A stretch of 34,006 nucleotides of DNA from Rubritepida sp. (GCA_028291455.1 JAQGHY010000044.1:1-34006), one strand, 5' to 3'; positions 1 to 33,785 are shown, counted from the first letter of the stretch. Notes: generated by a model not told the origin, from the letters alone. Numbers and translations: made by a program.

Positions 1-44
1 AACACCCCCGCGGGATCAGACGGCCGGCTGGCGCACGCGCCCGG

Positions 45-1217
45 TTGCGGCTGTTGACCTTCAGCACGCTCTACCCCAACGCGGAGCAGCCGCATCATGG
101 CGTCTTCGTGGAGAACCGGCTGCGGCATCTCGTCGCCAGCGGTGAGGCCAGCAGCACGGTGCTGGCGCCCGTGCCGTGGTTCCCCTCGACATCGCGCTAC
201 TTCGGCCGCTGGAGCCGCTACGCCGCCATCCCCCTGCGTGAGGAGCGGTATGGCCTGGCGGTGCATCATCCGCGCTTCGCCGCGGTGCCGGGGCTCGGCA
301 TGTTCACCGGCCCGCTCGCGCTCTATGCAGCCGCGCGTCGGGCGCTGGCGCGGATGCTGGCGGAGGGGACGCGGTTCGATGCGATCGACGCGCATTACCT
401 CTACCCCGACGGGATCGCGGCTATCCGCCTCGGGCACGAATTCGGGCTGCCCGTAGTGCTGACCGCGCGCGGTTCCGACACGAGCCAATTGCCACAATAC
501 CGGCTGCCGCGCCGCCTGATCCAGGCCGCGCTGCACGAGGCGACGGCGCTGATCGCGGTCAGTGCGGGACTGAAGGAAGGGCTGGTGGCGCTGGGCGCCC
601 CGCCGGACAAGGTCACGGTGCTGCGCAACGGCGTGGATCTCGACGTCTTCCGCCCGCCCGCCGATCGGGTCATGGCACGCGCGGCGCTTGGGCTGGATGG
701 GCGCCCTGTGCTGCTCTCGGTGGGGCATCTGATCGAACGCAAGGGCCATGACCTGATCATCCGCGCCCTGCCGATGCTGCCGGACCATCTGTTGCTCATC
801 GTCGGCGAGGGGCCGGAGCGCAGCGCGCTGCAGACGCTGGCCGAGCGGCTCGGCGTCGCGGACCGGGTGCGGCTTGTTGGCGCGCAGTCGCATGGGGCGA
901 TGCAGCGCTTCTACGGCGCCGCCGATGCGCTGGTCCTGGCCTCCAGCCGCGAGGGCTGGGCGAATGTCCTGCTCGAAGCGATGGCCTGCGGCACGCCCGT
1001 GATCGCGAGCCCGGCCTGGGGCAGCCGCGAGGCGGTCGCCGCGCCGGAAGCGGGGCTGGTGCTGGACGAGACGACGCCCGACACGATCGCCGCCGGTGTC
1101 CGCCGCCTGCTGGCCGCACCGCCCTCCCGCGCGGCGACCCGCGCCTATGCCGAGGGCTTCGGCTGGGCGGAGACGACGGCGGGGCAACTGGCCCTTTTCC
1201 GACAGGTGGTGGGATGA
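45..1217 (+). CDS. GT4 glycosyltransferase, WlbH/TuaC-like
   Basis: Retaining GT-B glycosyltransferase expected to add a sugar from a nucleotide donor to the lipid-linked EPS repeat unit on the cytoplasmic face of the membrane. The N-terminal acceptor half begins with the family-typical MRLLTFSTLYPN and HGVFVENRL. The C-terminal donor half (from about residue 215) has LLSVGHLIERKGHD, GEGPER and the E-x7-E-like ASSREGWANVLLEAMACG, with GTPVIAS after it. The length of 390 residues is normal for GT4. The listed start is TTG with no clear Shine-Dalgarno, and the reading frame stays open to the window edge, so the true start may lie slightly upstream or translation may be coupled to an upstream gene. 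The stop overlaps the next gene (ATGA), implying co-translation. The family call is secure; the sugar specificity cannot be read from sequence. Confidence 0.9.
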   Translation: MRLLTFSTLYPNAEQPHHGVFVENRLRHLVASGEASSTVLAPVPWFPSTSRYFGRWSRYAAIPLREERYGLAVHHPRFAAVPGLGMFTGPLALYAAARRALARMLAEGTRFDAIDAHYLYPDGIAAIRLGHEFGLPVVLTARGSDTSQLPQYRLPRRLIQAALHEATALIAVSAGLKEGLVALGAPPDKVTVLRNGVDLDVFRPPADRVMARAALGLDGRPVLLSVGHLIERKGHDLIIRALPMLPDHLLLIVGEGPERSALQTLAERLGVADRVRLVGAQSHGAMQRFYGAADALVLASSREGWANVLLEAMACGTPVIASPAWGSREAVAAPEAGLVLDETTPDTIAAGVRRLLAAPPSRAATRAYAEGFGWAETTAGQLALFRQVVG

Positions 1218-3259
1218 AGCTGACACGCCGGCATGCCATGGCTGTAGTGCCCTTCGCGGCGGTTCCTGCCTGCCAGGGTTATGCGCAATCCGCGGCATCG
1301 TTGCCCTGCGCCTCGCGGCCCGGCGATATCGTCGGGCTGGTGCTGGAAGGCTCGGGCGCACCGGCCGGCACCGTGACCGTCTTCGGCCAGAGCTTCCGCC
1401 AGGGTGACCTGCCGCGTAACGCCTTGCCCGGTGCGCGGACGGAGGACGGACGGCCGCTGACGGTCCAGTGCGACATCAAGACCCGCCACCCCGACGGCTC
1501 CGCGCGCTTCGCCGTCATGGCGCTGGCCGCCCCAGCGCTCGCCCAGGGCGCGCGGGCCGGTGTAGTGCTCACGCGGGAGGGCCAGGCGACGGGTCCGCTG
1601 GACGCGGCACCGCTTCTCGCCCGGCATCGGGCGGAGCTGTCGATCGGCGAGCAGCGAATGGATCTGATCGCCTTGCTGCGCACCGCGTTGGCCGACCCCG
1701 CGCTGCGGCCCTGGCAATCCGGGCCGCTCGCGATCCAGGCGCGGGTCATGGTGCCGGTCACCGGTCTTGCCGTGACCTCGATGCGCCTCGTCGCGGACCT
1801 CTCCGTGCGGGCCGATGGCAGCTTCTGGGCCGACCTTTGGATGCGAAACGACGGCGCCATGCGCGCCGGCGGCGGGGCCAGCCCGGCCTATACCTTGCGC
1901 GTGACGCTGGATGGCCGGGACGCGCTGCGCGCCGACATCGCGCGCCAGCACCAATACACCGGTTGGGGCCGGCTGCTGGGCACCGGCCCGGTGCCGCCCT
2001 CGGTACGGGCGGATGCGGCCTATCTCGCCGATGTCGGCGCCGTGCCGCGCTACGATCTCGGTACCGGCGTGGCGCCCGCGGTGCTCGCCACCATGGGCGA
2101 GGCCGCGCGCACCCCGGGCTGGTCCGCCCCGCTGGGGAACCGCTTCATCCAGCAGGACATGTCCGGCACCGGAGGAAGGCCCGATATCGGGCCCGCCACG
2201 CAATCCCAGGCGGCCTGGCTCATGACCGGGGATCCCCGTGCCGCCGCCTTCGCCATCGGCCAGGCCGAGGCGGCAGGTTCCATTCCCTGGCATTTCTGGG
2301 ACGGCGCCTGGATGGACACGCGCCGCTGGCCGCGGCTGTGGACCGACGGGCGGGGCGGGCCGCCGCCCGGTGGGCTGCTGCAGCCGATCGCCGCCGATAC
2401 CGGCTGGAGCCTGGACTCCGCGCATCAGCCCGATCTCTCGACCGTGCCCTATCTGCTGACCGGCCGCCGCGCCTTCCTGGATGAGATGCAGGCCCAAGCG
2501 AGCTGGAGCGTGCTCGGCCAATGGACCGGCACGCGCGGCACGCCCGACCGGCCGGGCCTGGCGGAGGGCGTGAACATCATTCGCGGCACGCAGGTGCGCG
2601 GCGCCGCGTGGTCGCTCCGCCAGCTCGACGGCGCTGCCTGGGCCAGCCCAGACGACGACGCGATGGTGCCCTGGCTGCGCGCCACGGCCGGGGCCAACTG
2701 GGCCTGGCTGCGCGCACAGCTTCCGGCCTGGACGGCGACGCAGGGCGAGGCGCATGGCTGGATCCCCGGCGAGTACGGCACGCCCGGCCTGCTGCCGCCC
2801 TGGCAGCAGGACTACTTCGCCTCCACGGCCGCCGCCGCCGCCAGGCGCGGCAATGCGGATGCGGGGGCTGTGCTGGCCTGGATGGGCAATTTCCTCGTCG
2901 GCCGCTTTCTTGCCGACCGGCGTGGCTTCCCCCGCAACGACGGCGCTGCCTATCTGCTGGCGATCCGGGCCGATGGCAACGCCGGCGCGCCCTTTCGGAG
3001 CTGGGCGGAAATCGGCCAGGCGACCCGTGCCCGCGGCCTGTCCAACGGCGACGGCTGGAGCAAGACCGGCGGCGACTACGCGCAGCTCGCCTTGGCATCC
3101 CTGGCGATGCTCTCGGATGCGACGGGAGGCGGCGAAGCGCGCGTGGCGTGGCAATGGCTGCGCGCATCCGGCGCGCCCTTCATCAGCCAGGATGCTTTCC
3201 GGCGCGACCCCATCTTCAACATCGTGCCGCGCGGCGAGGCCCGTTCAGCCTGCCGCTGA
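1214..3259 (+). CDS. Secreted protein of unnamed family; putative glycan-active (RIFT barrel plus helical barrel)
   Basis: A 681-residue exported protein. The N-terminus MKLTRRHAMAVVPFAAVPAC has a twin Arg and a hydrophobic core, which suggests a Tat or Sec signal; VPAC is a weak lipobox. From about residue 50 to the end it is clearly homologous to residues 5-655 of the 1275-residue protein at 20448. Both share DIKTRHPDGS / DVKTRYDDGS, RGAAW, GEAHGW, PPWQQDYFAST, NFLVGRF and RDPxF. The early pattern (FGQSFRQGDLP, then KTRHPDGSARFAVM) resembles the N-terminal RIFT barrel of PcRGLX/YetA-like exo-rhamnogalacturonan lyases. The Trp- and Ala-rich remainder would suit an alpha/alpha barrel. That fold link is inference and no catalytic residue is proven. 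ATGA overlap with the upstream glycosyltransferase ties it to EPS; trimming or modifying the polymer in the periplasm is the likely role. Its 3' end overlaps the convergent GT2 gene by 15 bp. Confidence 0.75.
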   Translation: MKLTRRHAMAVVPFAAVPACQGYAQSAASLPCASRPGDIVGLVLEGSGAPAGTVTVFGQSFRQGDLPRNALPGARTEDGRPLTVQCDIKTRHPDGSARFAVMALAAPALAQGARAGVVLTREGQATGPLDAAPLLARHRAELSIGEQRMDLIALLRTALADPALRPWQSGPLAIQARVMVPVTGLAVTSMRLVADLSVRADGSFWADLWMRNDGAMRAGGGASPAYTLRVTLDGRDALRADIARQHQYTGWGRLLGTGPVPPSVRADAAYLADVGAVPRYDLGTGVAPAVLATMGEAARTPGWSAPLGNRFIQQDMSGTGGRPDIGPATQSQAAWLMTGDPRAAAFAIGQAEAAGSIPWHFWDGAWMDTRRWPRLWTDGRGGPPPGGLLQPIAADTGWSLDSAHQPDLSTVPYLLTGRRAFLDEMQAQASWSVLGQWTGTRGTPDRPGLAEGVNIIRGTQVRGAAWSLRQLDGAAWASPDDDAMVPWLRATAGANWAWLRAQLPAWTATQGEAHGWIPGEYGTPGLLPPWQQDYFASTAAAAARRGNADAGAVLAWMGNFLVGRFLADRRGFPRNDGAAYLLAIRADGNAGAPFRSWAEIGQATRARGLSNGDGWSKTGGDYAQLALASLAMLSDATGGGEARVAWQWLRASGAPFISQDAFRRDPIFNIVPRGEARSACR

Positions 3260-13249: not shown

Positions 13250-13293
13250 GTTCCGTGCCGCGCTCCAAACCCGCAAGCGAAACCTTCGATACC

Positions 13294-15513
13294 ATGACCG
13301 AACGACAGGTATCCCCGAAGCCGCGCCGCGTGCTGCACGTCCTGAAATACTATCGCCCCGACTTTACCGGAGAAGGCGTTTTCCTGGAGCGGTCGAGCGC
13401 CGTCATGCAGGAGGTCCTGCCCGATGTCGCGCATGATCTCCTGGTCACGCACACGCCGCGCCCGGAAGATAGGATGCCGGCTTGCTCCACCCTCAGCCGC
13501 GTCGCCTATCTCTCGCGCCATCCGCTCGGAACCTGGCGCAGGCAGCTGGCGATGGCGGCGTGGCTCGTCACGCATATGCACCGGTACGACGCGGTGCATT
13601 TCCGCACCCATGCCGACTGGTACTTCGTCAGCTACATCCTGGCACGGCTTGCGGGCCGCAAGCTCGTGCTCTCGGCGACGCTGGACGACAGCGTGCCGGC
13701 GCTGATCGGCCAGTATCGCCCTAGCCTGCGCGGCCTTGCGGCCCGCGGCTTCGGACTGTTCGACGCCTTCGTCAGCAACGGCCCCAAGCTGCTGGAGGAG
13801 ACGCGCAGCGTGTCCGATCCCGAGCGCTGCCACCTGGTGCCCTGCGGCGTCACCATTCCGGCCGCCACGCCCGGCGAACGTGCGCGCATGCGCGCCGAAC
13901 TCGGCATCGGCGCCACCGACCCGGTGCTGCTCTTCGTCGGCGGGCTGTGCGAGCGCAAGGATCCGCTGTTCCTCGTCGAGGCCATGCCGCGCATCCTGGC
14001 ATCGCATCCGCGCGCGCACCTGCTGCTCGTCGGGCCCGAGCTCGAGGCCGACCAGATGCGCGCGCTGCAGGCAGCGATCGACACCTACCGGCTGGGCCGG
14101 CGCGTGATCCTCGCCGGTGAGCAGCTCGATCCGCATCCCTGGTTCGCGGCCTCCGATGTGCTCGTCTTCGCGTCGCGGCTAGAAGGCTTCGGCACCGTCG
14201 TGCCCGAGGCGATGGCGCATGGCCTGCCCGTCGTGGTGCGCCGGCTTGCGGGCGTGAACGACAGCTTCGTGCTGGAGGGCGAAACCGGCTTTTTCTTTGA
14301 GACAGAGGATGGCTACGTGAAGGCGGTCGACGAGCTTCTGGGCAATGCCGATCTGCGTGCCCGGATGGGCGCCGCCGGGCGGCGCCTGACGGCCAGCCGC
14401 TTCGGCATGCGCGGTGCGGCCGCGCGCTATCTCGGCATCTACGGCGCGTCGCCGGCCGTGCCCGAGGAGCCCGCGGAGGAAACCGGGCTCGGCTGTACGG
14501 CCTCCATCCTCGACCGCCGTTTCCACGTCCCCGTGGTTGTGCCGGCCGCGACGCAGCCGCTGCTCATCACCATGGTGGATGCGGAGGAGGCCTTCGACTG
14601 GTCGCGCCCTTTCAGCCGCGACGCCAGCGACGTGACCTCGATGGGCGAGCAATGGCGCGCGCATCGGGTCTTCGAGCGGCATGGCGTGGTGCCGCTCTAC
14701 CTCGCCGATCATCCGGTGGCCGCGCAGAGTTCCGGGCGGGAACCGCTGCGCGACCTGCTGCGCTCGGGCGCCTGCGAGATCGGTGCGCAGATGCATCCCT
14801 GGGTGACGCCGCCCTTCGACGAGGCTCTCGGCGAGCGCAACAGCTTCGCCGGCAACCTGCCGGTCGCGCTGGAACTGGCCAAGGCGCGGCACCTGACGGA
14901 GCTGCTGGGCGAGGCCTTCGGCGAGGCGCCGCGCATCTACCGCACCGGCCGCTTCGGCGCGGGGCCGCGCACCGGCGATATCCTGAAGTCCCTGGGCTAC
15001 CTGGCCGATAGCAGCATCACGCCCTGCTGGCCGCCGGAGGGCGTGGTGCGTCCCTGGCTCTCCGCGCGGCCCTTCTGGGCCGATCGCGAAAGGACGCTGA
15101 TGGAGATCCCCGTCTCCGCCGCGCTGGTCGGGCGCCTGTCGCACGCGACCGGCGTTGCGCCGCTCGTCTTCGGCAAGCGCATGCAGCGGCTGCGCGTCGC
15201 CGGCGCGCTGTCCCGCCTGGGGCTGATGGAGCGCATCCGCCTGAGCCCGGAGGGGATGACGCTGGACGAGGCGAAGCGGCTGACGCGGCACATGCTGGCC
15301 GACGGGCAGCGCGTCTTCGTGCTGACCTACCATTCGCCGTCGCTGGTTCCCGGCAATACGCCCTATGTCCGCACGGACGAGGACCTGAAGCGGTTCCTCG
15401 GCTGGCTCGACGAGTTCTACGCCTTCTTCGCGCAGGAGGCCGGAGGCCGCTTCGGAAGCTGGCGCGACCTGCGGCTCGGCCAACCCACTACGATGGCGCT
15501 GGCAGCGGAGTGA
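13294..15513 (+). CDS. GT4 glycosyltransferase fused to a WalW-like polysaccharide deacetylase domain
   Basis: A two-domain protein of 739 residues. Residues 1 to about 400 are a GT4 glycosyltransferase: KYYRPDFTGEGVFLERSS, LLFVGGLCERKDP and the E-x7-E-like SRLEGFGTVVPEAMAHGLP. Residues about 420-730 resemble the CE4 domain of WalW-type LPS biosynthesis proteins: TMVDAEEAFDW at about 426, QMHPWVTPPF at about 499, RTGRFGAG and LTYHSPSLVPG. A classic NodB HxxxH pair was not seen, as expected for this subgroup. Likely role: adding a sugar and deacetylating or otherwise processing the growing lipid-linked glycan. ATG 13294 is preferred over GTG 13255; the ribosome binding site is weak. The stop overlaps the next gene (GTGA). 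Confidence 0.85.
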   Translation: MTERQVSPKPRRVLHVLKYYRPDFTGEGVFLERSSAVMQEVLPDVAHDLLVTHTPRPEDRMPACSTLSRVAYLSRHPLGTWRRQLAMAAWLVTHMHRYDAVHFRTHADWYFVSYILARLAGRKLVLSATLDDSVPALIGQYRPSLRGLAARGFGLFDAFVSNGPKLLEETRSVSDPERCHLVPCGVTIPAATPGERARMRAELGIGATDPVLLFVGGLCERKDPLFLVEAMPRILASHPRAHLLLVGPELEADQMRALQAAIDTYRLGRRVILAGEQLDPHPWFAASDVLVFASRLEGFGTVVPEAMAHGLPVVVRRLAGVNDSFVLEGETGFFFETEDGYVKAVDELLGNADLRARMGAAGRRLTASRFGMRGAAARYLGIYGASPAVPEEPAEETGLGCTASILDRRFHVPVVVPAATQPLLITMVDAEEAFDWSRPFSRDASDVTSMGEQWRAHRVFERHGVVPLYLADHPVAAQSSGREPLRDLLRSGACEIGAQMHPWVTPPFDEALGERNSFAGNLPVALELAKARHLTELLGEAFGEAPRIYRTGRFGAGPRTGDILKSLGYLADSSITPCWPPEGVVRPWLSARPFWADRERTLMEIPVSAALVGRLSHATGVAPLVFGKRMQRLRVAGALSRLGLMERIRLSPEGMTLDEAKRLTRHMLADGQRVFVLTYHSPSLVPGNTPYVRTDEDLKRFLGWLDEFYAFFAQEAGGRFGSWRDLRLGQPTTMALAAE

Positions 15514-16256
15514 GCGGCTTGCAGGGTGTTCTGGTCGGCATACTGCTGCCGCCGCTGTTGCTGGCCCTGGTGGGCCTCCTGGCGGGGCTGCTGGCCTGGC
15601 GGGGGCGCCGCTGGGGCGGGCTGGTTGCGGCATTGTGCGCCGTGGCCACTCTGCTGCTGGCCACGCCGCTCGTCTCCGGCGCGCTGATGGCGTCGCTGGA
15701 ACGGGAGGTGGCGCGTCCAGCGTCCGTCCCCGGCGGGGCGCAGGCCATCATCATCCTGGGCGGCGATGTCGCGCATGGGCGCGCCGGCCACGAGGTCGGC
15801 ATGCTGACACTGGAGCGCCTGCGCGCGGGTGCCGCGCTGCAACGCGCGACGGGCCTGCCGATCCTCGTCACCGGCGGCGTGCTGGGCCGGGGCGAGCCAC
15901 CGCTCGCCGCGCTCATGGCGCGCAGCCTGCGCGAGGATTTCAACGTCCCGGTCCGCTGGATCGAGGGCCGCGCGGGCGACACGCGGGACAACGCCGTCTT
16001 CGCGGCGGAGATACTGCGGGCGGATGGGATCGGCGAGGCGCTGCTGGTTACGCATGCCTGGCACATGCCGCGCGCCCTCGGCGCCTTCGCCCGCCGCGGC
16101 TTTCCGGTGCGGGCCTATCCCTTGCGCGTTGCTCCGGCGGACGGTTGGGGAGCCTCGAGCTTCGCGCCACGCCCGGATCATCTGGCCGAAAGCTGGTTCG
16201 CCCTGCGCGAATGGGCGGGGCGCGTGGCCTATGCATTGCGGGATGGCGGGCCATGA
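15510..16256 (+). CDS. YdcF family (DUF218) membrane protein
   Basis: A 248-residue inner-membrane protein. Two hydrophobic segments (VLVGILLPPLLLALVGLLAG and GLVAALCAVATLLLATPLV) precede a DUF218 domain with AIIILGGD at its start, GLPILVTGGV, a DTRDNA motif and LLVTHAWHMPRAL. These are the conserved elements of the YdcF/SanA/ElyC family, which is tied to envelope polysaccharide metabolism, although its reaction is not settled. The start is the GTG at 15510 overlapping the upstream TGA (GTGA), so translation is coupled. A 149-bp lower-GC gap with a promoter candidate follows if the next gene starts at 16406. Confidence 0.88.
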   Translation: MSGLQGVLVGILLPPLLLALVGLLAGLLAWRGRRWGGLVAALCAVATLLLATPLVSGALMASLEREVARPASVPGGAQAIIILGGDVAHGRAGHEVGMLTLERLRAGAALQRATGLPILVTGGVLGRGEPPLAALMARSLREDFNVPVRWIEGRAGDTRDNAVFAAEILRADGIGEALLVTHAWHMPRALGAFARRGFPVRAYPLRVAPADGWGASSFAPRPDHLAESWFALREWAGRVAYALRDGGP

Positions 16257-16307
16257 GCGGCTGTCGGAGAAATTTACATATGCGTATCGGGCATCCATCC
16301 GGCCTTG

Positions 16308-16317
16308 AGAACGTTCT
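16308..16317. promoter_or_regulatory. Perfect 10-bp palindrome upstream of the sigma-54-like promoter
   Basis: AGAACGTTCT is self-complementary and lies about 20 bp before the -24 element, inside the low-GC gap. It could be an operator or activator site. TTGAGA overlapping its left edge, with AACAAT 17 bp later, is also a weak sigma-70-like pair. Confidence 0.3.
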
Positions 16318-16337
16318 GACGAAACTGAACAATTTTC

Positions 16338-16354
16338 CTGGCTCGTATTTTGCT
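16338..16354 (+). promoter_or_regulatory. Sigma-54-like (-24/-12) promoter
   Basis: CTGGCTCGTATTTTGCT matches the RpoN consensus YTGGCACGrNNNTTGCW at every strongly conserved position, with the exact 10-base spacing between GG and GC. The mismatches are A to T in the -24 block and the r position. Transcription would start near 16365, upstream of ATGs at 16388 and 16406. RpoN with the PrsK/PrsR pair is known to control EPS and PEP-CTERM genes in XrtA systems, so the site fits the locus. The same search by eye in the other intergenic regions gave no equal match. Confidence 0.5.
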
Positions 16355-16405
16355 TCAGCGGTCCTTGGCTGCCCTTGGCCGGTGAAGATGAAGGAAGCAG
16401 ACAGC

Positions 16406-17539
16406 ATGCCCCGCACCCGCCAGACGCCGCTCGGCCAGCGTGTGGGCCTGCCTCTTCCGTCCAGGCTGCGCCTTCGCCGATCGAAGGCAACGCCGCCGCA
16501 TCCCGTCCGCTTCCACGAGATGCCGCTCCGGACCCTGCCCGACTGGAGCGATGCCTGCCTCTCACCCCCCGACGGCGGCGACATCTTCGCCTCCCGCCTC
16601 TGGTACGGCGCCATCCTGACGCATGCCCTGCCGGAGGGCGCCGAGGCGGTGCTAGCCATGGTCGGCGAGGGCGAGGGCCGCATGATGCTGCCGCTGCTCC
16701 GGGGCCCGGGCGGGCTGCGCAGCCTCACCACGCCCTACACGCTCGAATGGCGTCCGCTCTTCCCCCAGGCCGACCGCTGCGGGAGCCACGCCGCCGGACG
16801 CAGCCTGGGCACCTGGCTGCACCGCCGTCCGCCGATGCGGCTGGAGGCGCTGGATCTGGACGCGCCGGGATTGCCGGCCTTGCTGGCGGGCATTGCCGCG
16901 ACCGGCATCTCCGTTCAGCCCTACCGCCACTTCGGCAATTGGCATGAGCCCTTGGCGGAGGGCGCCGGATGGGACGGCTACCTCGCGGCGCGGCCATCGG
17001 AGTTGCGCAGCACCGTCCAGCGCAAGCTGAAGCGCGCGGGGCGCGAGTTCCGCTTCGAACTGATGGATGTACCCGGCGCGTCGCTGCAGGAGGGCATCGC
17101 CGCCTATGAGGAGGTGCGGGCGCAGAGCTGGAAGCCCGCCGAGCCTTTCCCCGCCTTCGACGCCGCCCTCATGCAAGCGGCAGCGGCAGCCGGCGCGCTG
17201 CGTCTCGGCGTCCTGCGCGACAAGGCGGGACAGCCGCTGGCGGCGCAGTACTGGCTGCTCTCCGGCGGCCGGGCCTGGCTGCTGAAGCTGTGCCATGCCG
17301 AGGCCAGCCGCGCGGCCTCGCCGGGCACCGCGCTCACCGCGCTGATGATCCGCGGGCTGATCGAGAGCGACGGCGTGCGGGAACTTGATTTCGGCCGGGG
17401 CGACGACGCCTACAAGCGGCTCTGGATGTCCCAGCGGCGGCAGAAGATGGGCGTCGAGCTGGCGCATGCCTGGCATCCCACCGGTTTCGTTTCCGTGGCG
17501 CGGCACCGCGTCTCCGGCTGGCTGGGGCGCCACGCATGA
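16406..17539 (+). CDS. BioF2/FemAB-like GNAT acyltransferase
   Basis: A 377-residue member of the same double-GNAT family as the gene at 12146-13249, but clearly divergent from it. Recognisable parts are IFASRLWYGAIL, STVQRKLKRAGREFRFEL, LAAQYWLLSGGRAWLLKLCH and the C-terminal LDFGRGDDAYKRLWMSQRR. It probably transfers an acyl or aminoacyl group during glycan assembly. Three in-frame starts exist: 16253 (ATGA overlap with the YdcF gene), 16388 and 16406. The last is preferred because AAGGA lies about 10 bp upstream, the preceding ~150 bp are AT-richer than the coding DNA around them, and a sigma-54-like promoter sits there. Its stop overlaps the next start (ATGA). Confidence 0.82.
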   Translation: MPRTRQTPLGQRVGLPLPSRLRLRRSKATPPHPVRFHEMPLRTLPDWSDACLSPPDGGDIFASRLWYGAILTHALPEGAEAVLAMVGEGEGRMMLPLLRGPGGLRSLTTPYTLEWRPLFPQADRCGSHAAGRSLGTWLHRRPPMRLEALDLDAPGLPALLAGIAATGISVQPYRHFGNWHEPLAEGAGWDGYLAARPSELRSTVQRKLKRAGREFRFELMDVPGASLQEGIAAYEEVRAQSWKPAEPFPAFDAALMQAAAAAGALRLGVLRDKAGQPLAAQYWLLSGGRAWLLKLCHAEASRAASPGTALTALMIRGLIESDGVRELDFGRGDDAYKRLWMSQRRQKMGVELAHAWHPTGFVSVARHRVSGWLGRHA

Positions 17540-18720
17540 AGATCCTCTACAGCCACCGCATCGGCTCGCGGGACGGCCAAGGCGTGCATCTGGAGGCCAT
17601 GGTGGGTGCGCTGCGCGCCCAGGGCCATGAGGTGCAGCTTGTCGGACCGGCCGGCTTCGACAAGGCCGCGCTGGGCGGCGAGAGCTCGCTGGTGGCGCGG
17701 CTGCGGCGCCTGCTGCCGCGCTGGCTCGCGGAGTTGGCGGAACTCGCCTATGCGGTGCCCGCCACATGGCGTCTGGCGCGGGCCGCCGCGGCCTTCCGCC
17801 CGGATGTGATCTATGAGCGCGCCAACCTCTACCACATCGCCGGGCGTCTCGTGGCCAAGCTGCGCGGGGTGCCGCTGCTGCTGGAGGTGAACGCGCCGAT
17901 GGCCGAGGAGCGCGGGCGCTTCGGCGGGCTGGCCCTGCCGCGGCTTGCCGCCGCGATGGAGCGCTTCTCCTGGCACGGCGCCAGCCGCGCGCTGCCGGTG
18001 ACGGAGGTTCTCGCTGGCCACCTCGTTGCCGCCGGCGTTCCGCGCGAGCGGATCGCGGTGGTGCCCAACGGCATCCACCTGGAGGAATTCCCCGAGGCGG
18101 CGCCGGCGTCCGAGCGCGATCCCCTCGTACTCGGCTTCGTCGGGTTCGTGCGGGATTGGCATGGCCTCGATGTGGTGCTGCGGGGCATGGCGGGCTGGCA
18201 GGGCTCACCGGGACTGTCGCTGGTCGTGGTGGGCGAGGGGCCGGCGCGGGCAGGGCTGGAGCGGCTGGCGGGCGAGCTCGGCATCGCCGACCGGATCCGC
18301 TTCACCGGCCTCGCGGAACGGGCGGAAATCCCGGCGTACATCGCCGGTTTCGACATCGCCCTGCAGCCGGCGGCGGTGGCCTATGCCTCGCCGCTCAAGG
18401 TCTTCGAATACATGGCGGCCGCGCGCGCCATCGTGGCGCCCGATCAGCCAAACCTGCGCGAGGTGCTCGACCACGCCCACAGCGCGTTGCTGTTTGATCC
18501 CGCCGAGCCCGGCGCGTTCTGGCGCGCGGTGGAGCGGCTGGCGCGCGCCCCGGAGCTGCGCCGGCAGCTCGGCGACAACGCCCGCGCCGAGGTGCTGCGG
18601 CGCGACCTCACCTGGGAGGGCAATGCGCGGCGCGTGGTCGCCATCGCCGAGGCGGAGATCGCCACGCTCCGGCGGCGGGACGCGGGGGCGGCCCGCGTCA
18701 CCGCGGCGTCGCGCCGGTAA
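17536..18720 (+). CDS. GT4 glycosyltransferase
   Basis: A 394-residue GT-B glycosyltransferase. The N-terminus MKILYSHRIGSRDGQGVHLE carries the glycine-rich acceptor loop, and RPDVIYERANLYHIAG is typical of GT4 enzymes of exosortase-type EPS loci. The donor half has VVPNGIHLEEF, GFVGFVRDWHGLD, VVGEGPAR and the late DIALQPAAVAYASPLKVFEY, where the usual E-x7-E is partly altered to SPLKVFEYMAA as in one GT4 subgroup. It starts by ATGA overlap with the acyltransferase and ends by TAATG overlap with the next GT4, forming a coupled trio. It acts on the cytoplasmic side, adding an EPS sugar of unknown identity. Confidence 0.9.
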   Translation: MKILYSHRIGSRDGQGVHLEAMVGALRAQGHEVQLVGPAGFDKAALGGESSLVARLRRLLPRWLAELAELAYAVPATWRLARAAAAFRPDVIYERANLYHIAGRLVAKLRGVPLLLEVNAPMAEERGRFGGLALPRLAAAMERFSWHGASRALPVTEVLAGHLVAAGVPRERIAVVPNGIHLEEFPEAAPASERDPLVLGFVGFVRDWHGLDVVLRGMAGWQGSPGLSLVVVGEGPARAGLERLAGELGIADRIRFTGLAERAEIPAYIAGFDIALQPAAVAYASPLKVFEYMAAARAIVAPDQPNLREVLDHAHSALLFDPAEPGAFWRAVERLARAPELRRQLGDNARAEVLRRDLTWEGNARRVVAIAEAEIATLRRRDAGAARVTAASRR

Positions 18721-19862
18721 TGGACATGCAGCTGGAAAGCGCTCTCTCGAGCACATGGCTCCCGAATAACGAGGTGCCGCTCGTGCTGCATGTCTTCCCG
18801 AGCTTCGCGGTGGGCGGTGCGCAAGTCCGCTTCGCAGCACTGGCCAACCGTTTCGGCGCGCGCTGGCGGCACGCCGTGGTGGCACTGGACGGGGACGCCG
18901 CTTGCGCCGCGCGCATCGGGCCCGAGGTTCCGCTGACCCTGCTGCCGCCGCCCGACGATTCCGATTGCGGCGTCGTGCGGCGACTGTGGCGGATCCGGCG
19001 GATGCTCCGGCGCATGCAGCCCGACGTGCTGGTCACCGGCAACTGGGGCAGCATGGAATGGGCCGTCGCGAACCGGACCCTCGGCATCCGTCATATCCAC
19101 ATGGAGGATGGCTTCGGCCCCGACGAAGCGAGCACGCAGCTACGCCGTCGCGTTCTCGCGCGCCGCTGGAGCCTGCGCGGCAGCACCGTGGTTCTTCCGT
19201 CCGGCTCGCTGATGCGCATGGCGCGCGAGCAGTGGCGCCTTCCGCCGGCGGGGTTGCGCTACATCCCCAATGGCGTGGACCTGCGGCGCTTTCGCCCCGA
19301 TGGGCCGGTGGCGCCGATCCTTGTCGGGGGAGACGGGCCGCTGATCGGCACGGTAGCGGCGCTGCGGCCCGAAAAGGCGCTGGATCGTCTGTTGCGCGCC
19401 TGCGCCCTGCTGATGCGCGAGGGCACAGCCTTCCGGCTTGCGGTGGTGGGCGACGGGCCGGAACGGGGATCGCTGGAGCGGCTGGCGGCTGAACTGGATC
19501 TCTCCGGGCGGATCGTCTTCACCGGTGCCATTCCAGATCCGGCCGCTGCCTATCGGGCTTTCGATGTATTCGCGCTGTCCTCCGGCACGGAGCAGATGCC
19601 CTTCTCCGTGCTCGAGGCGATGGCGAGCGGCCTCCCGGTGGCGGCGACCGACGTCGGCGACATCAGGGGCATGCTGGCTGTGGAGAACGAGCCTCACGTC
19701 GCCGCGCTGGACGACGGTGCTCTCGCGGCCGGGCTGCGCGGCCTGCTGGTGGACCGGACGCATCGCCAAGTCGTCGGCGCGGCCAATCGCCAGAAGGCGG
19801 TTGCGGTGTTCGACCAGGAGGCGATGTTCCAGGCCTATGCCGATCTGCTTGAGGGCGGCTAG
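18720..19862 (+). CDS. GT4 glycosyltransferase
   Basis: A 380-residue GT-B glycosyltransferase, last gene of the rightward EPS block. It has VLHVFPSFAVGGAQVRF at the N-terminus (acceptor-side Gly loop), HMEDGFGPDE, YIPNGVDLRRFRPDG at the domain junction, GTVAALRPEKALDRLL, VVGDGPERGSLE and the catalytic-side SGTEQMPFSVLEAMASGLPV. The start ATG shares its A with the stop of the previous gene. The first ~17 residues are not conserved-looking; a true start a little downstream is possible but no better ribosome binding site is seen. Members of similar loci (the stp2 type) are PEP-CTERM associated; assignment to that exact subgroup is not certain. Confidence 0.88.
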   Translation: MDMQLESALSSTWLPNNEVPLVLHVFPSFAVGGAQVRFAALANRFGARWRHAVVALDGDAACAARIGPEVPLTLLPPPDDSDCGVVRRLWRIRRMLRRMQPDVLVTGNWGSMEWAVANRTLGIRHIHMEDGFGPDEASTQLRRRVLARRWSLRGSTVVLPSGSLMRMAREQWRLPPAGLRYIPNGVDLRRFRPDGPVAPILVGGDGPLIGTVAALRPEKALDRLLRACALLMREGTAFRLAVVGDGPERGSLERLAAELDLSGRIVFTGAIPDPAAAYRAFDVFALSSGTEQMPFSVLEAMASGLPVAATDVGDIRGMLAVENEPHVAALDDGALAAGLRGLLVDRTHRQVVGAANRQKAVAVFDQEAMFQAYADLLEGG

Positions 19863-20447: not shown

Positions 20448-23400
20448 ATGACTGAACTCTCGAATCTCAAGCTTGCTTTTGAAAATGCCGGTGCAGCCAC
20501 CCTGGCATCTGGCGTCGCCACTTTCGGCCAGGTGTTCCTGCCCGGCGAACTCCTCTCGGGAACCGGACTGACCGCTGAATTCGGCGGTGCCAGCCACGAC
20601 GTCCAGCTCGACGTAAAGACCCGATACGATGACGGCTCGGTCAAGATGGCGGTGCTCTCCATCGAACGGCCCGACCTCGCGCCCGGTGCCGCGCTCGACG
20701 TCACGCTCTCCGCCGCCGCGGCAAAGCCCGCCACCGCCATCGACCTCAATCAGGCGCTCGCCAACCATTCCTTCAACGTCGACCTGACCATCCAGGGCGG
20801 CGAGCATGTCAGCGTCGATGTCCTCGCCGCACTGCACGATGCGCTGGCCGACGGGTCCGCCAGCTTCTGGCAAAAGGGCGATCTGGCCAGCCAGGCCCGC
20901 GTCGAGGTCACGCTCGAAGGTTCGCAGCGGTTGGTCTTCGACGTGACCGCCTTCAAGGACGGAGGCTTCGCCGTCGAGGCCCAGTTCAACAACGACGGCG
21001 CCATGGGTGCGACCGGCGGCCGCGTCGCCTACGACCTCGTCGTGACGATGGATGGAAAGCAGGCCGCGGCCGAGACCGTGAACCAGGGCCAGTACCAGAA
21101 CTGGCACGAGAGCTTCTCCAGCAACGCCACCGACGGCGGGCAGGGCACCGGCAGCCCCGAGGCCGGCTGGCTGAACATCCGCCAGGACATCGCCCATCTC
21201 GAGGCGACCGGCGTCGTCGCCAATTACGACCTCAGCCTGCAGATCAATCCCAACCTGCTCGCCGCCTACGCCGCCGCCACCCAGGCCGACGGCTGGGGCG
21301 ATCCGCTCGCGACCAACGGCGTGACGCAATTCATGCCTGCCACCGGAGGCCGCTCCGACATCGGCATTACGACGACCGCCAACACGTCATGGCTGATCAG
21401 CCAGGACGCGCACACCGCCGCCTATGCGCTCGGCCAGGCCGAGACGGCCAGCTCCGTGCCGTGGAACTTCTGGGATGCCAAGAACGACACCTGGCTGAAC
21501 ACCGATGCCTATCCCCAGCTCTGGACGGATTACCGCGGCGGCACCGGCAGCCCTGGTGATCCGACCTCGACCGGCCTGACGCAGCAGGTGGGAGGCGACA
21601 CCGGATGGAGCACCGATCCCGCCCATCAGCCCCAGCTCTCCTTCGTGCCCTATGTGCTGACGGGCGAGCGCTGGATGCTCGATAATCTCGAGGCGCAGGC
21701 CGCCTGGAACATCCTCGGCCAGCAGCCCTCGGTGCGCGGCGACGCCGACGACAACGTGATCAACACCAACCAGGTGCGCGGCGCCGCCTGGGCGCTGCGC
21801 GAAGTGGACGCCGCCGCCTGGGCAGCTCCCGACGGCAGCACGGAGCAGACCTTCTTCCAGCACGCCTCGGATGCCAACTACGCCTGGCTGGTCGCCCAGA
21901 TCCCCAAATGGACGGCCGAGCAGGGCGAGGCGCATGGCTGGGTTCCCGGCAGCTACGGCGCCGACGGCGCCATGCCGCCCTGGCAGCAGGACTACTTCGC
22001 CTCCACCGTGATCGCGGCGGCCGGGCGGGGAAATGCGGATGCGATGACCTTCCTGAACTGGGAGGCCAACTTCCTCGTCGGTCGCTTCACGAGCGAGGCG
22101 CAGGGCTTTCACGCCCACGACGGTGCCACCTATCTGCTCGCCATCAGCGACCCCGTGACCGGTGCCGCCCCCTACACGACCTGGGCTGAGATCGGCGCGC
22201 AGACGGAGGCGCGCGGCTGGAGCAACGGCTTGACGGGATGGGAGCACAGCCAGGGCGACTACCCCCAGCTGGCCCTGGCCACACTTGCCGGCATCTATCA
22301 CCTGACCGGCTCGGCCGAGGCCAAGGCCGCCTATGACGCGCTGATCGCCGATGCCGCGCCGTTCTCCGGCACCAGCGACTACGAGCGCGACCCGACCTTT
22401 GCCATCACGGCGCCGGATGCGTCGTCGCCGCAGACACCGGTCGTACAGGACCCGGCCCATCCCACCCCGACGCCGGACCCCACGCCGGTTCCCGACCCCA
22501 CTCCGGTGCCAACTCCCACTCCCACTCCGGTACCCTCGTCCGGTCTGACGCCGCTCGCCATCATATTGGGCGCCGACAGTTGGCAAGGCGACCCGCTGGC
22601 GGTGATCCGCGTCGACGGCCAGGGGGTGTTCCGCGGCACGATCGCCACCCAGCACGCGGCGGGCGGGCAGCGGCTCGAACTGGGCAACTTCGACGCCCAT
22701 ACCGCCCATACGGTCACGGCCGAATTCCTCAACGACGCCTGGGGCGGTACTGCGACGACGGACCGTAACCTCTACGTTGAATCGGTCCTCGTGAATGGCG
22801 TCGCCACCGGTGACCATCAGGCACTGCTCGATGGCGGAACGGCGAGCTTCGTGCTTGCGGCGGCACCTGTCGCGGTACCGACGCCGGTACCCTCATCCGG
22901 CCTGACGCCGCTTTCCATCGTACTGGGCGCCGACAGTTGGGAAGGCGACCCGCTGGCGGTGATCCGCGTCGACGGCCAGGAGGTGTTCCGCGGCACGATC
23001 GCCACCCAGCATGCGGCGGGCGGGGAGCGGCTCGAACTGGGCAGCTTCGACGCTTATACCGCCCATACCGTCACGGCCGAATTCCTCAACGACGGCTGGG
23101 GCGGTACCGCGACGACGGACCGAAACCTCTACGTGGAATCGGTCCTCGTGAATGGCGTCGCCAGCGGTGACCATCAGGCACTGCTCGAAGGCGGGACAGC
23201 GAGCTTCGTGCTTCCGGCGGCACATGTCGACGTGCCGACCCCGGCCCCCACTCCGATCCCGACCCCGACCCCGGTACCCTCGTCCGGCCTGACGCCGCTC
23301 TCCATCGTACTGGGCGCCGACAGTTGGGAAGGCGATCCGCTGGCGGTGATCCGCGTCGACGGCCAGGAGGTGTTCCGCGGCACGATCGCCACGCAGCACG

Positions 23401-24275
23401 CCGCAGGCGGGGAGCGGCTCGAACTGGGCAGCTTCGACGCCCATGCCGTTCATACCGTCACGGCCGAATTCCTCAACGACGGCTGGGGCGGTACCGCGAC
23501 GACCGATCGAAACCTCTACGTGGAATCGGTCCTCGTGAATGGCGTCGCCACTGGTGACCATCAGGCGATGCTCGAAGGCGGGACGGCGAGCTTCGTGCTT
23601 CCGGCGGCACCCGTAGAGGTGGCGCAGGATGTCCTGCGGGTCGCGATCTCGGGGGACTCCTGGCAGGGCGACGCGAGCTACCTGGTGCTGCTCGACGGCA
23701 AGCAGGTGGGCAGCGGCACGACGAGTGCCTCGCACGCGGCCGGCGCGCTGGAGTTCATCGATCTGAAGGGGGATTTCTCGACCGCCGGGCACGAGTTGAC
23801 CCTGAGCTTCCTGAACGACGCCTGGGGCGGTACGGCCACGACGGACCGCAACCTCTATCTGGACTCCCTCACCCTGAACGGCGTGGACCAGCATCACGCG
23901 GCAAGCCTCCTCAACGGCGGGGATGCGACGTTCGACTTCGGGGGTGCGCCGGCGCCAGCCGCCGGTGTCACCCCGAACGTGATGCGTGTCGCGGCGTCCG
24001 ATCAAGGCGCTTCGCCCACGGTGCTTCTTGTGGACGGCGTGCAGATGGGCGGCGCGCAGGATGCGAGCGTGCCGCAAGCCGGGGCGGCGGAGCTCCATGA
24101 GGTCAAGGGCGACGACGCGGCTGCCGCCCATTCTCTGGCGCTGCAGCTTCTGCAAGGCGACGCCGCCAGCACTGCGGCAAGCAGCAACCTCCATGCAACA
24201 CCGGAGTTCCATGGCGAGGACCAGCAGGTCCATGCGCCGCTCGTGCCTCACAGCGACGCCGTTTTCGCTTTCTGA
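20448..24275 (+). CDS. Large leaderless CBM60-repeat protein with a domain of unnamed family; putative secreted glycan-active enzyme
   Basis: A 1275-residue protein. Residues ~5-655 are a paralogue of the whole secreted protein at 1214-3259 (shared DVKTRYDDGS, GEAHGWVPGSYG, PPWQQDYFAST), possibly a RIFT barrel plus helical barrel as in PcRGLX-like lyases. A Pro-Thr linker (about 670-698) follows. Then come four Ca-dependent, xylan-binding CBM60-like repeats starting near residues 700, 819, 948 and 1062, each with DSWxGD and FLNDxWGGTATTDRNLY. A fifth copy (about 1172-1275) has lost both motifs. There is no signal peptide (MTELSNLKLAFENAG), and the C-terminus ends SDAVFAF, acidic then hydrophobic as in type I secretion signals. 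The PrtD/PrtE pair at 30365-33444 could export it. The start is supported by CGGAGA 6 bp upstream. A terminator follows. Enzymatic activity is inference. Confidence 0.8.
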   Translation: MTELSNLKLAFENAGAATLASGVATFGQVFLPGELLSGTGLTAEFGGASHDVQLDVKTRYDDGSVKMAVLSIERPDLAPGAALDVTLSAAAAKPATAIDLNQALANHSFNVDLTIQGGEHVSVDVLAALHDALADGSASFWQKGDLASQARVEVTLEGSQRLVFDVTAFKDGGFAVEAQFNNDGAMGATGGRVAYDLVVTMDGKQAAAETVNQGQYQNWHESFSSNATDGGQGTGSPEAGWLNIRQDIAHLEATGVVANYDLSLQINPNLLAAYAAATQADGWGDPLATNGVTQFMPATGGRSDIGITTTANTSWLISQDAHTAAYALGQAETASSVPWNFWDAKNDTWLNTDAYPQLWTDYRGGTGSPGDPTSTGLTQQVGGDTGWSTDPAHQPQLSFVPYVLTGERWMLDNLEAQAAWNILGQQPSVRGDADDNVINTNQVRGAAWALREVDAAAWAAPDGSTEQTFFQHASDANYAWLVAQIPKWTAEQGEAHGWVPGSYGADGAMPPWQQDYFASTVIAAAGRGNADAMTFLNWEANFLVGRFTSEAQGFHAHDGATYLLAISDPVTGAAPYTTWAEIGAQTEARGWSNGLTGWEHSQGDYPQLALATLAGIYHLTGSAEAKAAYDALIADAAPFSGTSDYERDPTFAITAPDASSPQTPVVQDPAHPTPTPDPTPVPDPTPVPTPTPTPVPSSGLTPLAIILGADSWQGDPLAVIRVDGQGVFRGTIATQHAAGGQRLELGNFDAHTAHTVTAEFLNDAWGGTATTDRNLYVESVLVNGVATGDHQALLDGGTASFVLAAAPVAVPTPVPSSGLTPLSIVLGADSWEGDPLAVIRVDGQEVFRGTIATQHAAGGERLELGSFDAYTAHTVTAEFLNDGWGGTATTDRNLYVESVLVNGVASGDHQALLEGGTASFVLPAAHVDVPTPAPTPIPTPTPVPSSGLTPLSIVLGADSWEGDPLAVIRVDGQEVFRGTIATQHAAGGERLELGSFDAHAVHTVTAEFLNDGWGGTATTDRNLYVESVLVNGVATGDHQAMLEGGTASFVLPAAPVEVAQDVLRVAISGDSWQGDASYLVLLDGKQVGSGTTSASHAAGALEFIDLKGDFSTAGHELTLSFLNDAWGGTATTDRNLYLDSLTLNGVDQHHAASLLNGGDATFDFGGAPAPAAGVTPNVMRVAASDQGASPTVLLVDGVQMGGAQDASVPQAGAAELHEVKGDDAAAAHSLALQLLQGDAASTAASSNLHATPEFHGEDQQVHAPLVPHSDAVFAF
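22545..23610 (+). repeat. Three near-identical 322-bp tandem repeats coding CBM60-like modules
   Basis: Copies at 22545-22866, 22902-23223 and 23289-23610 are each 322 bp. By eye, copies 2 and 3 differ at under 20 positions; copy 1 is slightly more diverged. They are joined by Pro-Thr linkers of 35 and 65 bp. Such identity at the DNA level, beyond protein conservation, points to recent duplication or ongoing gene conversion. The upstream linker (about 22461-22540) is itself low-complexity CCNACN sequence. A fourth copy (23631-23943) is homologous only at protein level. Confidence 0.9.
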
Positions 24276-24678: not shown

Positions 24679-25167
24679 ATGCACGGCAATATCAAACCGA
24701 TTGGGCTCGATGGCCGAATGGATCTCGTCGGCATTCGCCGGGTTCCGATGGATGAGGTCGCAGGCCTCAACAATCGATCGCCGACCTCTGCCGATGCAAC
24801 CGTGGGTGGCCGCATCAAGGAGCTCCGGCGGGCCGCGGGCCATACCCAGAAGCAGGTCGCAAATCTCATCGGGGTCACCGGCGCGCAGTTTCACCGATAC
24901 GAGACCGGCGCGACACGCGTCGCCGCCAGCCGCCTCATGGCCATCGCAGCCGCGCTCGGCACCCGGCCCGAGGCGCTGATCGGCGCGATGGGCAAGGCCC
25001 AGCCGATGATCACCGCCGCTCCGCTCGACGGCGCGGCGACGGATGGGCTGGTCGAGCTGGTCGAGGTGTATGCGACCATCAGCGACCCCCGCCGGCGCCA
25101 CGCGCTCATCGCCTTCGCACGCGTCGTCGCGCGGGCGCAGGGCTCGGACGACCCTGTGGCGGACTAG
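24679..25167 (+). CDS. XRE family helix-turn-helix transcriptional regulator
   Basis: A 162-residue DNA-binding protein. A Cro/C1-type helix-turn-helix spans about residues 43-97: GGRIKELRRAAGHTQKQVAN, then LIGVTGAQFHRYETGATRVA, followed by LMAIAAALGTRPEALIG. The C-terminal ~45 residues (SDPRRRHALIAFARVVARAQ) are helical and may mediate dimerisation. The N-terminal ~40 residues are not conserved-looking. The ATG at 24679 has a good Shine-Dalgarno (GAGGAG, about 8 bp upstream), partly hidden in a hairpin. Homologues of this type are common orphan regulators in Acetobacteraceae and rhizobia. It stands between the CBM60-repeat gene and the large kinase; its targets are unknown, with autoregulation possible through the palindromes upstream. 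Confidence 0.88.
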   Translation: MHGNIKPIGLDGRMDLVGIRRVPMDEVAGLNNRSPTSADATVGGRIKELRRAAGHTQKQVANLIGVTGAQFHRYETGATRVAASRLMAIAAALGTRPEALIGAMGKAQPMITAAPLDGAATDGLVELVEVYATISDPRRRHALIAFARVVARAQGSDDPVAD

Positions 25168-30364: not shown

Positions 30365-31720
30365 CTATTGCTCGTGGAACGCCCGGGCCAGGCTGTCCTT
30401 CAAAGGCTGCATCAGGTAGCGCCAGAAACTACGCTGGCCGATCTGGACATGTCCCTCCACCGGCATGCCGGCGACGAGCACGACATCGGGCAGGGCCGCC
30501 AGCTGGTCCTCGTCGATCCGGATATGGGCGCGGAAGTAGGGCGGGCGGCCTTGCGGCTCGGTCGTCACGTCGGCGGCGACGAAGGTCACATGCCCGTGCA
30601 AAACCGGGATGAGCCGCTGGCGGAAGGCCGGCAGCCTGACCTCCGCGGGCAGACCCATATGGACCACATCGATGTCAGCGGGCTGGATGTTCACCTCGGC
30701 CACCAGCCGGTCCTGCACCGGAACCAGATCCATCGCCGGATCGCCGGCGCGGATGACGGCTCCCACGGTGAACTGGCGGAGATTGAGGATGGTGCCGGCC
30801 TCGGGCGCCACCATCTCCCGCCGCGCGGAGATATCGGCCGCGGCGCGCATGCGCTCCTCGGTATCGGCCAGCTTGCCCGCGACGTCGCGGGCTTCGGTGC
30901 CGATTTCCTGCTGCCGCTGGTCCCGCGCCTGGGCGATGCCGTTGCGCGCCTCGGCGATGGCGCCGTTCGCCCGCTGCACCTGCCCCTGCAGATCCAGCGC
31001 CTGCCCATCGAGCCCGGCCAGGGCGCGCTGCAGGGCCAGCAGCTCCGGCACGCGGGCGAGGCCCTGGCGCACGAGACCGCTGCGCATCACCTCCTCCTGC
31101 CGCATGAGCTCGCGCTGGCGGCGTGTCGCCTCCAACTGTCCCTCGGCGCCGGAGATCACCGCCTGCTGCTGCGTCACGCGGGATTCCAGCACGAGAAACT
31201 GACTGGCGAGGTTCGCGGCGCGGGCCTCGAACAAGGCGCGCTGGCCGGTCATCGCCTCCTGCGCGCGGATGTTGTCCGATGCCGTCATCTCCGCGGGGAA
31301 GGCGACGGCGGCGGCGCGCATCGTCTCGGCGTCTAGCCGGGCCATCTGCGCCATCAGCCCGAAGCGTTGCGCGCGCAGCCCTTCGAGGGTCGCGCCGGAC
31401 TGCACGTCGTCGAGCCGCATGACCACCTGGCCAGCCTCGACCCGAGAGCCGTCGCGCACCAGGATCTCTCGGATGATGCCGCCTTCGAGGTGGGACAGCG
31501 TGCGGCGCGTGCCCTCGACCTTGATCACGCCAGGCGCGATCGCGGCCTCCGCCAGCGGGGCCAGGACGGCCCAGCTCATGAAGCCGCCGAAGAAGCCGAT
31601 CATCACGACCAGCCCGCCCACGACCAGGCCGCCGGTGCGGGGCCGCTGCGCATCCAGCATCGGGTTGAAGGTCAGGCCGATGGCCGGCCGATGGTTCATG
31701 TTCTCGAGCCTGGTGCTCAT
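30365..31720 (-). CDS. Type I secretion membrane fusion protein, HlyD/PrtE family
   Basis: A 451-residue periplasmic adaptor linking the ABC exporter to an outer-membrane TolC-like channel. A short cytoplasmic N-terminus is followed by one transmembrane span (GGLVVGGLVVMIGFFGGFMSW, about 31-52). The first half-lipoyl/barrel segment is GVIKVEGTRRTLSHLEGGII. A long coiled-coil region (about 100-300, rich in Ala, Gln, Arg and Glu) follows, then EAGTILNLRQFTVGAVIRAGDP and the C-terminal barrel with VRLPAFRQRLIPVLHG. The length is normal for the family. The ATG at 31720 overlaps the exporter stop (ATGA) and has a consensus AGGAGG 7 bp upstream. No TolC gene is in the window. A possible substrate is the leaderless CBM60 protein at 20448-24275. 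Confidence 0.92.
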   Translation of the reverse strand: MSTRLENMNHRPAIGLTFNPMLDAQRPRTGGLVVGGLVVMIGFFGGFMSWAVLAPLAEAAIAPGVIKVEGTRRTLSHLEGGIIREILVRDGSRVEAGQVVMRLDDVQSGATLEGLRAQRFGLMAQMARLDAETMRAAAVAFPAEMTASDNIRAQEAMTGQRALFEARAANLASQFLVLESRVTQQQAVISGAEGQLEATRRQRELMRQEEVMRSGLVRQGLARVPELLALQRALAGLDGQALDLQGQVQRANGAIAEARNGIAQARDQRQQEIGTEARDVAGKLADTEERMRAAADISARREMVAPEAGTILNLRQFTVGAVIRAGDPAMDLVPVQDRLVAEVNIQPADIDVVHMGLPAEVRLPAFRQRLIPVLHGHVTFVAADVTTEPQGRPPYFRAHIRIDEDQLAALPDVVLVAGMPVEGHVQIGQRSFWRYLMQPLKDSLARAFHEQ

Positions 31721-33444: not shown

Positions 33445-33785
33445 ACGGTCATGGCCGGGACGGGCGTTCGCCCGCGTCCAGCATCTCTCCAAGCTGCATC
33501 CGGGCGCGAAGCACGGCTGTGGATCAGGGCGGCCGTCTGGTCTCCAGCGCGATCTGATTGGCTGGAAACCGTCGTCCGAACCTTCGTCCACGCCGCGCCT
33601 GGCGACCGAGGGGGGTGCGAGGGGATCGCTCCGCCGGGTTCAAGTCCGGGCTGGTTTCCGGCTCAATCACGGAGAACGCAAGAATAACGGGGCAGGATTC
33701 TGAGGAACTTTACAACTTCGCGCGACGAAAAAGGGCCGGCACGCAGATGCGCGCCGGCCCCCTTAGGATGCCGATGAACCAGAAA
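33445..33785. other. 341-bp intergenic region between the PEP-CTERM gene and prtD-like gene
   Basis: No gene seen. The promoter for the secretion operon is expected here on the minus strand, but no clear -35/-10 or sigma-54 site was recognised. The right end holds the PEP-CTERM gene terminator. A GGGTTCAAGTCC stretch near 33636 resembles a tRNA T-arm but has no matching tRNA around it. Confidence 0.4.
33728..33760 (-). terminator. Rho-independent terminator of the PEP-CTERM gene
   Basis: On the minus strand GGGCCGGC-(12)-GCCGGCCC forms a perfect 8-bp stem followed directly by TTTTT. It ends about 25 bp after the PEP-CTERM stop. This is the most canonical terminator in the window. Confidence 0.85.

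Follow-up and report, generated by a model that had tools for sequence, protein, structure and literature searches.

The window, meaning the whole 34,006-nucleotide stretch of Rubritepida sp. DNA analyzed here (GCA_028291455.1, JAQGHY010000044.1:1-34006), starts where its contig starts, in a genome assembly of 356 contigs that is 89.8% complete. It carries two members of one protein family, a short copy of 681 residues and a long copy of 1275 residues (Table 1). BLASTP aligns residues 42-671 of the short copy with residues 9-654 of the long copy at 46% identity over 661 columns (E 5e-163), bearing out an initial sequence-only reading in which the whole short protein was homologous to the first half of the long one; the long motifs which that reading had named are present in both proteins in the same order. 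The overlap it had described between the short-copy gene and a GT4 glycosyltransferase gene is likewise real, with bases 1214-1217 reading ATGA and the GT4 stop codon at 1215-1217, and in many relatives the same gene precedes the short copy. The family was correctly described as unnamed: NCBIfam and PHROGs hold no family for either protein, no publication naming it was found in the open-access literature, and no known activity was found for any member.

Table 1. Features of the window and the evidence for each (positions counted from the first base of the window)
Feature	Position	Strand	Evidence
GT4 glycosyltransferase, 5' end outside contig, ATGA overlap with short copy	3..1217	+	Pfam Glycos_transf_1 E 7.5e-38
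Short copy, 681 aa	1214..3259	+	Family alignment A1; AF2 model pLDDT 93.7
Leader region, residues 1-36, twin-arginine type MKLTRRHAMAVVPFAAVPACQGYAQ	1214..1321	+	Hydrophobic stretch after RR
RIFT barrel, residues 37-120, PcRGLX_1st-like	1322..1573	+	PF19501 E 0.0018, hhalign, model
Central beta-sandwich, residues 131-265	1604..2008	+	Secondary structure of AF2 model
Alpha/alpha toroid, residues 268-676	2015..3241	+	AF2 model; conservation in bacterial and phage members
Genes of this EPS locus located between the two copies (GT4, YdcF-like, GNAT)	13255..19862	+	Profile scans
Long copy, 1275 aa, no leader	20448..24275	+	ORF, BLASTP
Long-copy core, residues 1-654, homologous to mature short copy	20448..22409	+	BLASTP
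Four CBM60 (PF16841) modules with Pro-rich linkers, outer limits approximate	22515..23900	+	Pfam E 4.9e-41
C-terminus SDAVFAF, acidic residue then hydrophobics, type I secretion signal-like	24252..24275	+	Motif count
HlyD-type adaptor, type I exporter	30365..31720	-	TIGR01843, 339 bits vs cut-off 209
PrtD-type ABC transporter, type I exporter	31717..33591	-	TIGR01842, 680 bits vs cut-off 510

A second contig of the genome, C312, carries PrsK, PrsR, PrsT and a Wzy-like TIGR03097 gene. Both C312 and the window are collinear with the relative G175, in which C312 ends at L035:6632 and the window begins at L035:6656, so that the short gene falls into the row PrsK-PrsR-PrsT-Wzy-GT4-short copy. The exosortase A gene lies on another contig. 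PrsK, PrsR, PrsT and EpsH are components of the XrtA/PEP-CTERM exopolysaccharide (EPS) locus (PMC1569441), and it is the genes of this locus that neighbor the short copy. Between the two copies, the window encodes a 752-amino-acid protein (13255-15513, +) whose first half is a GT4 enzyme and whose second half looks deacetylase-like with no Pfam match; this fusion recurs in the EPS loci of relatives. No sigma-54/PrsR box was found at threshold before family genes (0 of 76 upstream regions). A sigma-54-like site with one mismatch lies ahead of the GNAT gene (16339-16354, +), in a window where the count of such sites is near chance.

The family is present in 58 of 300 genomes of the bacterial family, and many carriers have two or three copies. 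A frequent pattern among them is a leadered short copy, mostly of twin-arginine type, together with a leaderless long copy. Short and long genes share one contig within roughly 35 kb in about 15 carriers by our own count from the table of matches, and some pairs are divergent neighbors 0.3-0.4 kb apart. The sequence-only reading had proposed, from the coupling to the GT4 gene, that the protein acts on the EPS being made, and a neighborhood survey of homologues upholds the association with EPS loci across genera; the outcome which that reading had named as refuting it, homologues with no tie to such loci, did not arise. TIGR03097 scores above its cut-off in 50 of 58 carriers against 48 of 242 non-carriers (Fisher p 3e-21, a value that ignores phylogeny and is inflated by shared ancestry); several of the eight carriers without it are incomplete genomes. 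Across 40 fetched loci the same EPS neighbors return, namely an XrtA-type amidotransferase, PrsK/R/T, Wzy, a flippase, GT4 and GT2, and the short copy is a conserved neighbor of PrsK/PrsR/PrsT/Wzy in many genera. In a minority of loci, most of them the adjacent divergent pairs of G062, G223, G185 and G137, the fetched stretch contains no recognized EPS neighbor. In a wider sample of the alphaproteobacteria, 15 other genomes have matches, and most of the full-length homologues adjoin PrsK/PrsR/PrsT, Wzy, EpsB2 or chain-length genes (homologues from other alphaproteobacterial families lie in such loci in G597, G650, G349, G643, G355, G414, G508 and G438). Divergent bacterial relatives of about 540 amino acids (L088:723-2339, L109:7535-10267, L110:6703-8304) lie close to the large phage group in alignment A5; at least two have twin-arginine-like leaders, and their placement in EPS loci is not clear.

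The second half of the long copy does belong to a named family, CBM60, with four stretches of these carbohydrate-binding modules and the best Pfam match at residues 1063-1151. Most long copies begin directly with the core, and their C-terminal modules are of CBM60, RTX or M10_C type; several relatives carry RTX repeats, and the long copy of the window has none. Two giant cadherin/RTX proteins, L098:2106-10733 (2875 aa) and L106:10361-17299 (2312 aa), have the enzyme core near the C-terminus and look adhesin-like. The Rubritepida genome also has a third copy, of the long type, which is interrupted by contig ends (C156:27379-27778, L056; C298:1-861, L055) and lacks its middle there; where it overlaps the long gene of the window, the two are 93.5-94% identical in DNA. 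Behind the long copy of the window lies a small unnamed ORF of 162 amino acids (24679-25167, +); it is conserved in three of the fetched genomes.

The two copies differ in their export features, as the sequence-only reading had anticipated when it set a leader against none. By a home-made rule rather than SignalP, 29 of 31 short copies have a leader-like hydrophobic stretch, which twin arginines precede in 20, and 12 of 31 have a lipobox-like cysteine motif; the twin-arginine pattern occurs in 0 of 27 long copies. A C-terminal acidic residue followed by hydrophobics, resembling a type I secretion signal, is found in 13 of 23 long relatives, 0 of 33 short copies and 5 of 142 background ORFs, and is thus limited to about half of the long copies. 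The long copy of the window has no N-terminal leader and a type I exporter nearby, downstream. The HlyD-type adaptor gene is kept beside the long copy of G175 at 80% identity; the PrtD-type gene is likewise present in G175, and it recurs close to the L104 homologue. A gene located between the long copy and the exporter (25373-30007, -) encodes a 1544-amino-acid fusion in which CheB, CheR and PAS are joined to a histidine kinase, two receivers and an output domain of LuxR/FixJ type. In the family tree, short and long copies are strongly sorted yet do not form two clades. The long copies of the window's relatives make up one clade, and a different group gave rise to the adjacent divergent pairs independently; a simple two-clade origin was rejected, as the tree demands at least five or six changes.

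Members of the family are also found in phages. A first scan of viral contigs returned 19 contigs with identities of up to 55-57%, and a scan with a distant sub-family returned 98; the two scans partly share contigs, and about 80 different proteins remain after removal of near-duplicates. PHROGs holds no family for these phage members. Their gene neighbors include tail fibre (1.5 kb upstream in L117), tail sheath (downstream in L122), portal (L126), head-tail adaptor and endolysin (adjacent in L120). EBPR siphovirus 1 gp39 is a member and adjoins gp40, which is annotated as a glycosyl hydrolase. Several phage proteins run from a short N-terminal stub and a Pro-rich linker straight into the sandwich and toroid, without a RIFT barrel. 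Two others contain the whole domain set twice in tandem (L142:903-6656, 1918 aa; L219:305-5062, 1586 aa). When the RIFT region is left out of the tree, members from phages and from bacteria are intermingled, and well-supported branches force at least two changes.

AlphaFold2 modeling of short-copy residues 37-681 with 41 sequences (the window, L005 and viral contigs; alignment A6) predicts a RIFT barrel, a beta-sandwich and an alpha/alpha toroid with a pLDDT of 93.7 and a pTM of 0.94; a model from three sequences reached a pLDDT of only 38.7. Foldseek against the PDB gives five matches under 1e-3, all of them to the polysaccharide lyase family 26 (PL26) enzyme PcRGLX (best E 8.5e-6, probability 1.00), and the next best match is another polysaccharide lyase at E 0.03. 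Against a viral structure library, the model matches one uncharacterized Caudovirales protein (E 2.9e-15). PDB searches by sequence, with single proteins and with profiles, gave no meaningful match to the family. PcRGLX (PDB 5xqo, 5xqj, 5xq3) likewise has a RIFT barrel followed by a beta-sandwich and an alpha/alpha toroid, and its RIFT domain is homologous by profile: PF19501 matches 24 of 56 members (best E 2.3e-6), exceeding its curated cut-off in the relatives L037 and L062 and falling below it in the short copy of the window (18.5 bits vs 22.1), and hhalign to PcRGLX proteins reaches E 4e-7 with the RIFT domain alone aligned. The resemblance to PcRGLX/YetA-like lyases seen in the N-terminal pattern by the sequence-only reading thus stands. 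Of the three Pfam domains proposed there for comparison, PF19501 was matched, whereas PF21345 and PF21346 were detected in none of the 56 + 41 members (E up to 0.1 and 1) and PF21346 had no match in the Rubritepida genome.

The family nevertheless differs from PcRGLX in several ways. PF21345 and PF21346 go undetected, and the fold match to PL26 has low TM-scores (0.34-0.37 for the full chain), indicating that domain placement differs or that the kinship is remote. Taxa, locus, export and phage use are also different, and the substrate is presumably the cell's own EPS. The family was not assigned to PL26, because the RIFT domain is the only part detectably homologous by sequence. On the strength of the model, the family probably folds like PL26 and works like a lyase.

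A PL26-like fold could also fit enzymes that digest outside polysaccharides such as plant pectin or hemicellulose as food, with proximity to EPS genes reflecting regional clustering only. PL26 itself digests such polymers, and CBM60 is described as xylan-binding, which may point to an outside substrate. We consider this unlikely, since many genera, and other families too, have the gene within the PrsK/R/T-Wzy-GT4 row, the short-copy gene overlaps the GT4 gene, and no uptake or sugar-catabolism genes were recognized among the conserved neighbors. An enzyme for plant polymers would also be of little use among phage tail genes. The alpha/alpha toroid fold is used by epimerases and hydrolases as well, and Foldseek matches the toroid weakly to N-acylglucosamine 2-epimerases (E 0.08-0.5). 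This might indicate an enzyme that modifies EPS rather than depolymerizing it, such as an epimerase or a transglycosylase acting on the polymer; with an epimerase match much weaker than the PL26 match, and with phage use that favors cleavage, we regard this as very improbable.

Seven residues never vary across the bacterial and phage rows of alignment A6, all of them in the toroid: H404, T416, R441, R462, W466, R469 and W530. H514 of the GEAHGW motif was considered as a catalytic residue and rejected, as it varies and is a glutamine in the 73%-identical relative L005; Y534 varies as well and was likewise set aside. The constancy of H404, R441, R462 and R469 even in phage members of 25% identity suggests catalysis and would argue against pure binding. 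It therefore weighs against a role for the family as non-catalytic EPS-binding or matrix proteins, in which the toroid would bind polymer and long copies would be adhesins tying EPS to the cell, as the adhesin-like giant relatives in L098 and L106 and the CBM60 tandems might imply. Phage tails usually cleave the polymers they encounter, and we consider the matrix role unlikely. The active site probably lies in the toroid, the part that phage members keep even where they lack the RIFT barrel. An Arg/His-rich invariant set combined with a PL26-like fold would point to a lyase that acts beside a uronic acid rather than to a hydrolase. This guess at lyase chemistry, drawn from the predicted fold and the Arg/His set, is weaker than the guess that the proteins are depolymerases.

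The most likely role of the family is to cut the EPS made by its own gene cluster, so that the substrate would be the EPS of the exosortase-A-linked locus. The two genes probably encode the same kind of polysaccharide-cleaving enzyme for two compartments of one EPS pathway, with a module shared with phages. The short copy, with its twin-arginine or lipoprotein leader, would reach the periplasm or membrane beside the Wzy polymerase and trim nascent or misplaced EPS. The leaderless long copy would leave through the neighboring type I exporter, and its CBM60 modules may anchor it to the completed polymer; its task there would be to shorten or release the EPS. Phages carry the same putative catalytic module among their tail genes and would use it to cut through this EPS. 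A more specific proposal, to which we give about even weight, is that the family represents a new CAZyme family, a lyase family distantly related to PL26, which acts as a dedicated XrtA-EPS depolymerase in a periplasmic/extracellular pair and has been exchanged with phages, whose tails would attack this EPS with the toroid as their depolymerase.

A comparable arrangement exists in rhizobia. ExoK and the PrsDE-secreted ExsH of Sinorhizobium meliloti shorten succinoglycan (PMC1403797, PMC4916376); like PlyA/PlyB of Rhizobium leguminosarum, they are EPS degraders with two export routes, one of them through a type I exporter. Judged from its sequences, the family would resemble ExoK/ExsH in comprising two EPS-locus homologues, one with a leader and the other suited to a type I exporter. 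ExoK/ExsH and PlyA/PlyB are glycanases of known families, whereas the proteins described here, in which Pfam and NCBIfam scans find no glycoside hydrolase (glycanase) domain, form an unrelated, unnamed family with a lyase-like predicted fold, a putative activity and a home in XrtA EPS loci. Among phage enzymes, the LKA1 gp49 tailspike is likewise a polysaccharide-cleaving enzyme in a tail module, the activity of the present family being a prediction. LKA1 gp49 uses a beta-helix (PMC5701251). In contrast, the model of the homologous bacterial protein is an alpha/alpha toroid without a PHROG family, not the beta-helix trimer common among tailspikes.

If these assignments hold, the family would be an independent case of an ExoK/ExsH-like two-compartment arrangement. 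It would also add an alpha/alpha toroid type, for which PHROGs has no name, to the candidate phage depolymerases. The phage enzymes may serve as ready-made reagents for cutting the polymer and solving its structure. The source of EBPR siphovirus 1 is a wastewater reactor for phosphorus removal, a setting in which EPS of this kind is important to flocs and granules. Descriptions of exosortase-A EPS loci go back to 2006 and give names to PEP-CTERM proteins and PrsK/R/T, and the description of the XrtA/PEP-CTERM locus contains no depolymerase, lyase or hydrolase (PMC1569441). The family offers a testable depolymerase candidate with a fixed position in these loci, and would fill the missing depolymerase place in the XrtA/PEP-CTERM EPS locus.
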